Shown here piece by piece: positions 24,843 through 49,311 of a DNA stretch of 64,000 nucleotides; within the stretch, counting starts at the first letter, position 1; the number at the start of each line of letters is the position of its first letter. The notes under the pieces were generated by a model. It ran no database searches, was not told the origin of the DNA, and saw nothing but the letters and a program-made list of their open reading frames with translations. This DNA is from Longibacter salinarum (GTDB taxonomy: Bacteria > Bacteroidota > Rhodothermia > Rhodothermales > Salinibacteraceae). The stretch is from the NCBI RefSeq assembly GCF_002554795.1, contig NZ_PDEQ01000002.1, forward strand, positions 186,001 through 250,000, written 5' to 3'. The position numbers and the translations under genes were made by a program.

Positions 24843-25017
24843 CTGGACGATGTGGGACGAATACAGCGTAACCGTCCTGCATGATGTTGATTCCCGCGAC
24901 GGTCCCTCCCTTGCTCCGGCAGGGGAGGGCTGTCCTGGTTCTGGAGGCTTGAGTGGTTGAGATGTCTCGCACGATTCGAGTTGCCAACCGAGAGTTTCTC
25001 CGTGTTTTTCCGTTTGT

Positions 25018-25206
25018 GTCCCCTTTTTGACGGGCCAAAAAGGGGGACGGAAAAAGCCCTCCGGCTATTTGCGCTGCGTCTGAAGGCTGCGTGCCGTTGC
25101 GCGACCGCGAATCCAAACTCGTTCGCTGTGCTCACTCAGACAGGGATTCGCGAGGCGTCGCTGCACTTTACTCCGCCTTCCGAGACGCCGCACCGAAAAA
25201 GGCCGG
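25018..25206 (+). repeat. truncated copy G of the large hairpin-bounded repeat family
   Basis: Starts with a hairpin equivalent to the left hairpin of the full units, but with GTCCCC...GGGGAC instead of GTCTC...GAGAC. It continues through the conserved internal stem (CGCGAATCC 25106-25114 with GGATTCGCG 25144-25152) and ends after the conserved AAGGCCGG. The right half and right hairpin are missing. It lies 175 nt after the DUF4856 gene, on the same strand. The stem sequences differ from the other copies yet remain paired. Confidence 0.7.
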
Positions 25207-28212: not shown

Positions 28213-28302
28213 GTCGTTGGGACGTTTGCGCGTTTACGCGGTGTGCGTTTCTGCAGGGAGTAGTCGCCTTTTGCCCATGAAGCGAGCTTTCCGGACCCTG
28301 TT

Positions 28303-28940
28303 CGTCTCATTTTTTGAATCGCCAAAAAACGAGACGCAAAAAAGCGACCCGACTATGCACGCTTCGTCTAGCGCTCCGACGTCACCACGGAACGAATCCA
28401 AACTCGCGATCACAGATCGCTCAGACAGGGATTCGTTCTGGTCGTGGTTCCGACTCTGCGCTCCAGACGACGAACCGAGCAAGGCCGGGGGAACAGCACT
28501 AGTGATAAAGCGATGTCGCTTTTGCTATACCGGCCGCTGTGGCTGTCCGCAGCCAGTGAATCCGTGGGTCGTTTCGGCCCTTGGAGGCGTTCGCCGCACA
28601 ACAGGCACTAGTTCGCTTTGCTCACGTTGCCCGGACGGGAGCGGACGCGCCGCGTCCAATTGCTGGTTGGTATGCCGGTTAGCGAAAACGTTCAGTGGGA
28701 AATGCTCCTTGTCTGAAGATCGCACGGCAGCGAATTCCAGGTCTGAGTTCACAGCTTAAGAGCGATCAAGTCCATAGGATGACCTTACAGGCCCTTCGGA
28801 GCATTTCAGCGGTGCCAGAGCGGACGTCAGGCGAAGGTCTCCCCGGCCTTGACTTTTTTTATTGCATGAGTACCAGAGGCATGACCTTCGGCCCTCGCTT
28901 CGCTCGTCTCGCCGGTTTTTTGGTCAAGCAAAAAACCGGC
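28303..28940 (+). repeat. large hairpin-bounded repeat, unit A (candidate structured RNA)
   Basis: Left hairpin CGTCTC-A-TTTTTTG/CAAAAAA-C-GAGACG (28303-28336) and right hairpin GCCGGTTTTTTG/CAAAAAACCGGC (28911-28940). Internal pairs: GAACGAATCC (28390) with GGATTCGTTC (28429), enclosing GCGATC/GATCGC (28406, 28415); CAAGGCCGGGG (28480) with CCCCGGCCTTG (28841); GAAATGCTCC (28699) with GGAGCATTTC (28798). Same subfamily as unit C (GGGAAATGCTCC variant). No open frame is conserved across copies. Confidence 0.8.
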
Positions 28941-28975
28941 ACCACCGATTGAGAACGGATCCTTGCTCTTGCTTT

Positions 28976-29421
28976 GTCTCATTTTTTTGAATGATCAAAA
29001 AACGAGACGCAAAAAAATCACACCAACTGGCACTAGCTCACTTCGCCACCTGAACCGCCGGACTGCGCAAGGCCGGGGGAACAGCACTACTAAGCTACCC
29101 ATGGCGGTTTCCCAATTTGGCCCTTGTGATTGGCTTCGGCCTCTGGGCCCGAGGGCCGTTCCGGCCCTTGCGAAGATCGCCGGAACGAGTGGACCGAAAC
29201 CGAAGCGTCCCATTATCTCTCTGGCTTGCTGATTGGCGCGATCGATCGAAGGGGAAATTCTCCTTGTCTGAAGGCCTCGAAGCATCACGTCAGGTTGCGC
29301 TATGGACCGTAACAGAGAGGCCAAGTTTGGAGAATTTCAGCGGAGGCGGAGGGCCAGTCAGGCGATCTTCGGCAGGCCTTGACTTTTTTGCACCGGTTTT
29401 TTGGTCAAGCAAAAAACCGGT
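28976..29421 (+). repeat. large hairpin-bounded repeat, unit B
   Basis: Follows unit A after 35 nt. Left hairpin starts GTCTC at 28976; right hairpin 29392-29421. It lacks the GAACGAATCC stem but keeps GAAATTCTCC (29254) with GGAGAATTTC (29329) and CGAAGATCGCC (29171) with GGCGATCTTCG (29361). A degenerate left hairpin of a further copy (gtctcatttttg, 29457 onward) follows 35 nt later, so the array may once have been longer. Confidence 0.8.
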
Positions 29422-29517
29422 ATACCCGATGGGGAAAGAAGACCTCCGCTTCTTGAGTCTCATTTTTGTCGCAGGAAGAAACGAGTACGTACGGTCCAAA
29501 AAGGAGCGATAGATCGG

Positions 29518-36378: not shown

Positions 36379-36399
36379 TCTTGTTGTGAATTGCTTTCT

Positions 36400-36887
36400 G
36401 TCTCATTTTTTGGTCCGCCAAAAAACGAGACGCAAAAAAGCTCCCCGGCGGTCCGCACTTCGTCTAGTGCTTCACGGGCGGCGCTAAACAAATCGAAACT
36501 CGTCCGCGGCGCGGACTCGAACAGCGATTTGTTTTTGCCGCACCGCCCGTTCCACACTCGAGACGACGAACTGCGCAAGGCCGGGAGACAGCACCCTCGG
36601 TTCAGTGATAGTACGTGCGTCGTTCCGGCCCTTGGAGACGTTCGTCGTCCGAACGGGAGCGGAGGCGCCGCGTCCAATCGCTGTTTGGTCTACCGGTTAG
36701 CGAAAACGTTTGGTGGGAAATGCTCCCTGCCCGCAGGCCTCGAAGCAGGACCGTCAGCTATTTGCAGGTCTCTACCAGAGAGGTCAAGGCCTTGGAGCAT
36801 TTCAGCGGAGCAGGAGCGGACGTCAGGCGAAGGTCTCCCCGGCCTTGACTTTTTTACGCCGGTTTTTTGGTCAAGCAAAAAACCGGT
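36400..36887 (+). repeat. large hairpin-bounded repeat, unit C
   Basis: Left hairpin GTCTC...GAGAC (36400-36431); right hairpin CCGGTTTTTTG (36859)/CAAAAAACCGG (36876). Internal pairs: AAACAAATCG (36486) with CGATTTGTTT (36525), enclosing GTCCGC (36502)/GCGGAC (36511); CAAGGCCGGG (36576) with CCCGGCCTTG (36838); GAAATGCTCC (36717) with GGAGCATTTC (36794). Relative to unit A the first two stems have changed at both partners of several pairs. Confidence 0.8.
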
Positions 36888-37037
36888 ACCTCGGGCCGAA
36901 GAAGACTCCAACGATCGACCACACCAACCACACTTGGGTATTCTCAGAACTGACATCCCCAACCAAAGAATTGACTTTAACGCCAGCGGGCAGCAGGTTG
37001 GGGGCATTCGGATACATCTCGTTCACGAGCCTGTCCA

Positions 37038-45500: not shown

Positions 45501-45597
45501 GGGAGTATGAGAGCGGTACGAGATGGCGCGGCGTGTCACGGGTTTCGCCGGTGATCGGAAGTCTGATGGTGTGCCCCCCAACTCTGAACGTTGACAC

Positions 45598-45792
45598 CCT
45601 GTTTGGCGGATGGGCCGCGAAAAGCAGGAGGCGAGGGTCGAGTATCAGCTACGCCTGCAGGTAATCATTTGACGCGAACGCAGTAGACACGATAAGCGAA
45701 AGTCTGCGACGACTCTGCGTTGTGAGCGTCACGAGGGCCGACCGCCAGGAGGCTCGTACCGTTGAGTGGCCGAAGGCTGTCCGCCGAACAGG
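45598..45792. repeat. about 200-nt multi-hairpin element, copy Y
   Basis: Bounded by CCTGTTTGGCGGA (45598) and TCCGCCGAACAGG (45780), complementary over 13 nt with one G-T pair. Internal hairpins: GCAGG/CCTGC (45624, 45654), and GACGC-x-AACGCAG (45671) with CTGCGTT...GCGTC (45715-45730), further extended by AGAC/GTCT. Shares GACGCGAAC, TGTGAGC and GGCCGAA at matching spacing with copy X. Confidence 0.6.
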
Positions 45793-45855
45793 TTCTGAAC
45801 TCTGAACACTGAACTATCAGTATTCTGAACTCTGAACGTTGAACTCTGAACTTGT
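45793..45855. repeat. TCTGAAC heptamer tract
   Basis: Several near-tandem copies of tctgaac/actgaac/gttgaac. The same word type ends the tract beside the RNase III gene (cgttgaaccctgaac). Confidence 0.6.
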
Positions 45856-47299: not shown

Positions 47300-47884
47300 G
47301 TCTCATTTTTTGGGCCGCCAAAAAACGAGACGCAAAAAACTCCCACCAACGGGCACTAGCTCGCTTCGCTCACGTCGCCGGCTGTCCGCGCTTCGTCTAG
47401 CGCTTCGCCTTCGCCACACCAACCGGTACTAGCTCGCGTTGCTCGCGTCGCGGAACGAATCCGAACGGCCCAAAGGGTCATCCCGTGGACTCGCGAGCAC
47501 GGCTCGCTCAGACAAGGATTCGTTTTGTTCGTGGCTCCGTCTCCACGCTCGAGACGACGAACCGCCCAAGGCCGGGAGAAACGCGATCAGTTTTCAGTAC
47601 GGATGCGTGGCCTTTTGCAGTTTCGGCCCTTGCGAAGATCGCCGGAAAGAGCGGTCCGCAACGGAAGCGTCGCATTGTCGCCATCGGTTGCCGGTTAGCC
47701 GGAGCGACCGAAGGGGAAATTCTCCTTGTCTGAAGGTCTCGAAGCAATGCGTTCAGGGTTTTATGAGGCGAATCCAGAGAGACCGAGTTTGGAGAATTTC
47801 AGCGCAGGTGGAGGACCGGTCAGGCGAACTTCGGCGGGCCTTGACTTTTTTCTCGCTGGTTTTTTGGTCAAGCAAAAAACCAGC
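47300..47884 (+). repeat. large hairpin-bounded repeat, unit D
   Basis: Left hairpin 47300-47331; right hairpin GCTGGTTTTTTG/CAAAAAACCAGC (47855-47884), where GCTGG/CCAGC replaces GCCGG/CCGGC of other copies. Internal: GAACGAATCC (47453) with GGATTCGTTT (47516), enclosing GCGAGC (47493)/GCTCGC (47502); GAAATTCTCC (47716) with GGAGAATTTC (47791). Carries an optional segment cccaaagggtcatcccgtgg not present in A-C. Confidence 0.8.
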
Positions 47885-47918
47885 ACGAAGGATGGGGAGG
47901 GTCTTCTCGATCCTTGAT

Positions 47919-48524
47919 GTCTCTTTTTTTGGGCGACCAGGAAAAACGAGACGCGAAAAAGTCGCCGTCTGTTCGCGCTCCGGCTGGGGTCTTCTCTCGG
48001 TCGCGGAACGAATCGAAAGGGCCCGAAGGGGCATCCCGTGGACTCGCCTGCAGAGCAGGCTCAGACAACGATTCGTTCTGATCGCGTCCTCGCTACGTCA
48101 CCTGAATCGCCGGACCGCGCAAGGCCGGGAGGAGCAGCCCCCTCGTTCGAGCCTGGTACCTATGCCGCTCGCTCGCTTCGCTCACATCGCCGGGAAGCGG
48201 CTTCTGGTTGAGTGACACCAGCCTCTAATCCATATGTCATTTTGGCCCTTGCGAAGATCGTCGGAACGAGCGGTCCGCAACAGAAGCGTCCCATTGTCGC
48301 CATGGATTGCTGGCTAGCCGGATCGATTGAAGGGGAAATTCTCCCTGTTTGAAGGTCTAGAAGCAATCCGTTCAGGGTCTGATGAGGCGAATCCAGAGAG
48401 ACCGAGTCCACGGGATGACCTTTCAGGCCCTTCGGAGAATTTCAGCGCAGGTGGAGGACCGGTCAGGCGATCTTCGGCAGGCCTTGACCTTTTTGCCGGT
48501 TTTTGGGTCAAGCCAAAAATCGGC
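47919..48524 (+). repeat. large hairpin-bounded repeat, unit E
   Basis: Left hairpin 47919-47952; right hairpin 48495-48524 with a G-T pair (GCCGGTTTTTGG/CCAAAAATCGGC). GAACGAATCG (48006) pairs with CGATTCGTTC (48069), enclosing GCCTGC (48046)/GCAGGC (48055); GAAATTCTCC (48335) pairs with GGAGAATTTC (48434). A further 15-bp perfect complement joins CATCCCGTGGACTCG (48032) with CGAGTCCACGGGATG (48403). Confidence 0.8.
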
Positions 48525-48556
48525 ACCAGGGGATGGGGGCGTTCCCGATCCTCACG

Positions 48557-49067
48557 GTCTCATTTTTTTGGGTCGCCAAACAACGAGACGTAAAAAAACT
48601 CCCACCAACGGGCACTAGCTCGCGTTGCTCGCGTCGCGGAACGAATCCGAACGGCCAAAGGGTCATCCCGTGGACTCGCGAGACAAGCTCGCTCAAACAA
48701 GGATTCGTTTTGTTCGTGGCTCCGTCTCCACGCTCGAGACGACGAACCGCGCAAGGCCGGGAGAAACGCGATCAGTTTTCAGTACGGATGCGTGGCCTTT
48801 TGCAGTTTCGGCCCTTGCGAAGATCGCCGGAGAGAGCGGCCGCGAACCGGAGCGTCCCCTCAATTGCCATCGATTGTGGGTTGGCGAATCGATCGATGGG
48901 GAAATTCTCCCTGTGTGAAGGTCTCGAAGCAACCTCGACAGTAGTATCTCGGGCGAATCCAGAGAGACCAAGTTTGGAGAATTTCAGCGTAGGTGAAAAG
49001 CCGCTCAGGCGATCTTCGGGAGGCCTTGACCTTTTTTGCCGGTTTTTTGGTCAAGCAAAAAACCGGC
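48557..49067 (+). repeat. large hairpin-bounded repeat, unit F
   Basis: Left hairpin 48557-48589; right hairpin 49038-49067. GAACGAATCC (48639) with GGATTCGTTT (48701), enclosing GCGAG (48678)/CTCGC (48688); GAAATTCTCC (48901) with GGAGAATTTC (48976). A degraded left-hairpin-like stretch around 49111-49146 suggests the remains of another copy. Confidence 0.8.
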
Positions 49068-49311
49068 ACCACCGAGTGGAAACGCCCTCCAGCCCTTTTC
49101 ATGCTCACCTCGAATTGGGTCGAAAAACAAGAACCGAAAAGTCCCATCCCTCCAGGGGCCCGTTTGCTTCGGTTCACGTCACGGCTTGCCCCGGTACCAT
49201 CAAGAACACCGACAGCCAGAACGATAGATCGGTCGATGTTAAGGCGTTCTGGATCGGCTCGGTTTACGATTGTACCTTGGGCTGCACCCCTAACGAAATG
49301 TTGGTCCCTCC

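Follow-up and report, generated by a model that had tools for sequence, protein, structure and literature searches.

The ends of IS200/IS605 elements are marked by hairpins whose adjacent bases pair with a short segment, and come without obvious target duplication. In integron attC sites, it is the structure rather than the sequence that is conserved in single-stranded DNA. RAYT genes of subclass 2.6 are reported to be flanked by atypical secondary structures, copies of which are found elsewhere in the genome (PMC6006769), and the BrickBuilt MITE of Porphyromonas gingivalis carries short IS-like terminal repeats together with 23-nt tandem repeats (PMC4596501).

Here we describe a repeat found in a 64,000-nucleotide stretch of contig NZ_PDEQ01000002.1 of Longibacter salinarum (hereafter the window; the genome is labelled G000). 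A first-pass annotation of the window had reported a family of 450-640 nt elements and proposed that they form a structured RNA. We find that the repeat is most likely mobile DNA, which works like REPINs or MITEs yet can be filed under neither.

The long elements are pairs of a folded unit

The six nearly complete copies that had been placed at 28303, 28976, 36400, 47300, 47919 and 48557 (copies A to F) are all present in the sequence at these positions, as are the stems quoted for them. The 450-640 nt element is indeed multi-copy and structured, but the unit from which it is built measures about 190 nt, and the element itself corresponds to two diverged units placed head to head. For this analysis we used R1, a covariance model of the right half built from 15 copies (alignment A1), R2, a model of the single unit, and A3, an alignment of 26 units from the family. 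When R2 was run on the window, every long element resolved into two head-to-head units with their A/T hairpins pointing outward, because the left half matches the single-unit model on the minus strand. The left stems (GAACGAATCC/...) of an element correspond to its right stems (GAAATkCTCC/...): both are the same helix, seen in two inverted units. The copy at 25018, previously taken as truncated, is instead a complete single minus-strand unit (25007-25204, 88 bits with R2). The units of the window are as follows.

25007..25204, minus strand: single complete unit (R2 88.1 bits; sequence)
28297..28486, minus strand: copy A left unit, with the A/T hairpin at 28304-28335 (R2 90.1 bits)
28577..28859, plus strand: copy A right unit core, a long form with an extra domain of ~80 nt, ending in CCTTGAC-T7 (R1 187.6 bits; alignment A1)
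28910..28942, plus strand: copy A right A/T hairpin, loop GTCAAG, with a short insert between it and the core (sequence; partial R2 match 28823-28950)
28969..29074, minus strand: copy B left unit, a shortened remnant (R2 22 bits, E 0.001)
29164..29431, plus strand: copy B right unit with A/T hairpin (R2 81.6 bits; R1 230.9 bits)
36391..36582, minus strand: copy C left unit (R2 87.6 bits)
36627..36897, plus strand: copy C right unit (R2 70.2 bits; R1 213.4 bits)
47300..47573, minus strand: copy D left unit, with the A/T hairpin at 47300-47331 (R2 31.2 bits for 47356-47573; sequence)
47625..47894, plus strand: copy D right unit (R1 219 bits; R2 61.2 bits for 47677-47894)
47910..48126, minus strand: copy E left unit (R2 56.7 bits)
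48245..48534, plus strand: copy E right unit (R2 73.5 bits; R1 209.4 bits)
48550..48758, minus strand: copy F left unit (R2 weak, 16.4 bits, E 0.03; 83% identity to the left half of copy D)
48811..49078, plus strand: copy F right unit (R2 74.4 bits; R1 203.8 bits)

As seen in A3, the unit starts with GGCC and continues with a long bulged hairpin carrying TGTCTGAG...GAGTTT, the sequence AGCCTTGAY, a T-run and an A/T-stem hairpin. The long hairpin has two internal loops, and TGTCTGAG...GAGTTT is conserved around a variable tip. The 6-nt loop of the A/T-stem hairpin (RTCAAG) is complementary to the bases preceding the T-run. Most relatives have a shorter version, in which some 150 nt are followed by an A/T hairpin of about 35 nt. 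Among the 22 units of Bacteroides luti (loci L309-L312), the tip of the A/T hairpin exists in six versions and is perfectly paired in 22/22; this tip is hypervariable, against far more similar cores, and in all units the base preceding the T-run matches it.

The usual element consists of inverted units separated by a non-coding spacer of 0-500 nt, but single units also occur, as do pairs with genes between them. Inverted units thus lie at both ends of an element devoid of coding capacity, as is typical of MITEs. In agreement with the earlier description, no reading frame is conserved across copies.

The window copies sit among unrelated genes; examples are the gap between yidC and mnmE, the neighbourhood of DinB-type polymerase genes, and a site following an aldehyde dehydrogenase gene (Pfam), where the left unit of copy D begins a few nucleotides past the stop. 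By eye, the copies often lie directly behind an intrinsic terminator. Outer inverted repeats specific to single copies are clear in a few copies only. With copy B as a BLAST query against its own genome, we found 31 matching stretches, clustered on contigs C2, C7 and C8. Separately, positions 45582-45804 of the window hold another dispersed intergenic repeat, with dozens of matches in the genome (69-86% identity) and one cluster on contig C5 with a period of ~197 bp.

Covarying stems keep Watson-Crick pairs

The compensatory stem changes noticed in the first pass are borne out, with a covariation far above that of shuffled and slid controls. First, in the 26 family units of A3, loop-to-linker pairing included, 87.8% of the cells pair compared to 69% after shuffling. 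Second, double changes are found in 46 of 59 pairs, with 272 double-change cells against 83 in shuffled alignments, and the covariation score reaches 0.495 compared to 0.172 for shuffled and at most 0.115 for slid controls. Third, the copies of the L. salinarum genome alone give 74 double-change cells (26 shuffled, at most 13 slid) and a score of 0.372 (0.158 shuffled, at most 0.075 slid). The covariation within the units is therefore decisive.

Since G-U is tolerated in RNA helices, G-U should far exceed A-C at covarying positions if the structure were kept as RNA. The ratio of G-T to A-C at covarying pairs was 20:22 in the family set and 23:29 in a second, independent set, made up of 46 dissimilar units from Bacteroidota. 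As a control, RNase P RNA was taken from genomes of this family and processed identically; it gave a G-U to A-C ratio of 82:14. The pooled units (43:51) differ from this control with p = 8e-9, a comparison that assumes similar relatedness within the unit set and the RNase P set. The counts were made from related sequences with an RNA folding program, the control being treated alike. Thus, with G-T no commoner than A-C in the units, the structure is apparently kept by Watson-Crick pairing of DNA, and the wobble ratio argues for selection on DNA structure rather than on RNA.

A transcribed structured RNA family with many copies, akin to regulatory or guide RNAs, would account for the strong covariation and for the conservation of the unpaired motifs TGTCTGAG and GAGTTT; the T-run behind the core fits it as well, and the loop-to-linker pairing would then be a pseudoknot. 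The right-hand units of the L. salinarum genome taken alone also lean this way, although 12 G-U for 6 A-C (p = 0.09) does not discriminate. However, the roughly equal ratio in two independent sets compared to RNase P, the inverted paired organisation, and neighbours and orientations that are not fixed all speak against an RNA, and we consider it unlikely. The proposal of a structured RNA is not supported either by the dispersal of the units or by their varying presence between congeners, and single-stranded DNA, which the same annotation had named as an alternative, fits better.

As anticipated, Rfam holds no family for the unit, at either gathering or permissive thresholds, which also weighs against an RNA. 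The only Rfam matches were to a tRNA and to an unrelated fluoride riboswitch; the latter is located at 73-152 of locus L025, upstream of a Salinibacter-group unit. A group I or II intron was rejected, as no Rfam intron model matched. More generally, a wobble test run alongside an RNA of the same genomes as control offers a cheap filter to keep DNA palindromes off lists of new RNAs.

A second explanation does without any function: in palindromes, template switching that corrects inverted arms at replication could by itself generate covariation. Changes that are almost only Watson-Crick would be expected from such a process, and so would the fast yet perfectly paired change of the A/T hairpin tip in the 22/22 B. 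luti copies. In contrast, bulges and unpaired motifs are conserved across Bacteroidota, Rhodothermia and Balneolales, and the block is amplified as a whole. Functionless palindromes are therefore, in our view, very unlikely.

The unit is found across Bacteroidota and relatives

R1 found matches in 21 of the 27 genomes of the family and, in a sample of the phylum, in two genomes outside it. By searching the GTDB genome collection with the gapped motif TGTCTGAG...GAGTTT...AGCCTTGAT, we found 103 stretches. Their hosts include Sphingobacterium, Parabacteroides, Dysgonomonas, Bacteroides, Taibaiella, Edaphocola, Flavobacterium, Myroides and Pontibacter, as well as Saprospiraceae, Rhodothermia, Fodinibius, Melioribacteraceae, Calditrichaeota and two MAGs labelled Thermotoga and Desulfurellaceae. 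R2 detected 3-61 units per genome in 19 motif-bearing genomes. The gapped motif was absent from viral contigs, and a window copy had no match in a plasmid collection. The paired organisation recurs in the L. salinarum genome, other family members, Parabacteroides, Bacteroides, Dysgonomonas, Fodinibius and Taibaiella. A literature search with the motif sequences found no relevant paper. If our reading is right, this is a common structured repeat of Bacteroidota, gut species included, that is so far uncatalogued in the literature and the Rfam data searched.

The units are dispersed and amplified

The genes next to the units are mixed, the orientation of the units to them is near-random, and no recurring partner gene was found beside the units. 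A role as leader or attenuator was rejected in view of these mixed neighbours and orientations. For adjacent units less than 1 kb apart, we counted 13 head-to-head, 8 tandem and 0 tail-to-tail arrangements. In Parabacteroides faecalis, a spacer is common, whole or in part, to three pairs at separate places, so that unit-spacer-unit spreads as one block and is amplified within the genome.

The presence of units also varies between congeners. In the congener G001, the redoxin gene orthologous to the one preceding copy C and its terminator are present without the unit, which is thus absent from this orthologous site, the other flank not being conserved. In genome G012, the gap between cas8e and cse2 in a type I-E cas operon holds a unit (L095, 4976-5190). 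The upstream flank of a unit in G023 (L039) is very similar to that of this cas-operon unit, and both may occupy the same site. Around one Salinibacter-group unit, synteny extends to a single conserved flank. No clear case of target-site duplication was seen at the borders read by eye. A link between unit orientation and replication was set aside, the GC skew around units being weak and the position of the origin ambiguous because of two dnaA genes. As a separate observation, two DnaA-domain genes are present per genome in G000, G012, G017 and G008, all of the L. salinarum family.

Some pairs bracket toxin-antitoxin and abortive-infection genes

On contig NZ_FQTV01000003.1 of B. luti, we found ten inverted pairs, seven of which have spacers of ~1-1.8 kb. 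The genes inside these pairs include AbiEii with DUF6922, Abi_2, Fic, an ATPase with DUF234, and DUF7017, while the intervals from pair to pair hold AAA_14-DUF4143 ATPases and an AbiJ-type gene (loci L310, L311 and L312). Likewise, an AbiEii gene is flanked by two units in Fodinibius, and in G013 (L104, 1-5328) three DUF433 genes, two DUF5615 genes and a PIN-domain pair are interleaved with at least 5 units.

These loci suggest that the units could be the ends of cassettes or transposons whose cargo is genes for toxin-antitoxin systems and abortive infection. This would be a special case of mobile DNA, in which the empty pairs of the window would have lost their cargo. However, most units in the wider sample have ordinary housekeeping neighbours, so that an association with toxin-antitoxin genes is not upheld as a general rule; moreover, the B. 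luti array is a single locus, and units could just pile up in a defence island. We hold cassette ends to be rather unlikely as an overall explanation, and the carriage of cargo by units is a lead, not a rule. If the B. luti link were to hold elsewhere, it would show one way in which defence genes come together. An integron attC array was rejected as well, since R-box motifs were not seen by eye at the unit ends, which are GGCC/AGCCTTGAY, and no integrase family recurs among the neighbours.

Y1 transposases are not associated with the units, and an IS4-type transposase is a separate insert

If the units were REPs or REPINs of a Bacteroidetes-type RAYT (TnpA-REP) of subclass 2.6, the enzyme that mobilizes them could be named. 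Dispersed intergenic palindromes arranged as inverted doublets, in the same phylum, are in line with this assignment. Against it, none of 48 loci with Y1-transposase genes had a unit within 1.5 kb, no match to Y1 (PF01797) was found in the L. salinarum genome or in 6 of 14 other unit-bearing genomes, and the presence of units is independent of that of Y1 across 27 genomes (p = 1). Also, at about 190 nt and with GGCC at its start, the unit lacks the GTAG foot. These adjacency and presence data rule out a Y1 transposase as a required partner, and a subclass 2.6 RAYT system appears rather unlikely. PF01797 covers class 2 RAYT proteins only partly (PMC6006769), so that a divergent RAYT could be missed and is a possible partner.

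In P. faecalis, the spacer of one unit pair contains an IS4-type (DUF4372) element with 43-nt perfect inverted arms (L315, 2338-4053), inserted at the centre of a GAGGCGCAGCGTGCTGC palindrome. This transposase was rejected as the autonomous copy, because it has its own inverted repeats and the spacer is common to empty copies. With this separate insert as the sole transposase between units, no parent autonomous element with the same ends was found.

Discussion

Taken together, our observations indicate that the repeats are probably non-autonomous mobile DNA with structured single-stranded ends, similar to REPINs and MITEs and recognised in trans by a putative enzyme. The unit would fold as one DNA strand into the long bulged hairpin, the T-run and the A/T-stem hairpin. 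A putative transposase or recombinase acting on single strands would then recognise the folded units in trans, and would copy or move the unit pair to intergenic sites, which often lie within palindromes or directly follow a terminator. Both the enzyme-driven mobility and the single-stranded nature of the substrate are what we infer from the genomes. If this reading is right, the repeat points to a single-strand DNA enzyme, for which the searches described above gave no candidate.

Whether the system differs in kind from those described is a more delicate matter. It is conceivable, though on balance doubtful, that we are dealing with a system unlike any of them, in which large folded single-stranded DNA units would act as inverted ends read by a putative enzyme, would travel as empty pairs across much of the Bacteroidota and its relatives, and could in addition flank and rearrange genes for toxin-antitoxin systems and abortive infection. 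We file the element under neither REPINs nor MITEs because its size, foot and adjacency do not fit a RAYT-REP system and because the parent element was not found.

Compared to integron attC sites, the units likewise conserve structure over sequence and can form arrays with toxin-antitoxin genes (B. luti, G013), but they come in inverted pairs and not one per gene. With IS200/IS605 elements they share hairpin-marked ends, the pairing of a short segment with bases beside the hairpin and no obvious target duplication; in contrast, here there is no nearby TnpA, the ends are inverted copies of each other and the structure is far larger.

The BrickBuilt MITE of P. gingivalis is also a few hundred bp long, intergenic, present in several to tens of copies and without a transposase gene (PMC4596501), yet the ends described here are long folded units conserved by structure, with no parent IS found. 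REPs are defined by a 20-40 nt hairpin with a GT[AG]G foot, whereas our unit starts with GGCC. Unlike in REPINs and BIMEs, the unit reaches about 190 nt with two internal loops and a second, A/T hairpin, a RAYT gene adjoins none of the units tested, and units occur in genomes without a detectable Y1 transposase. What they have in common with REPINs and BIMEs with their RAYT (PMC6006769, PMC3116915) is that dispersed intergenic palindromes are amplified as an inverted unit-spacer-unit block, which is non-coding and probably moved in trans.
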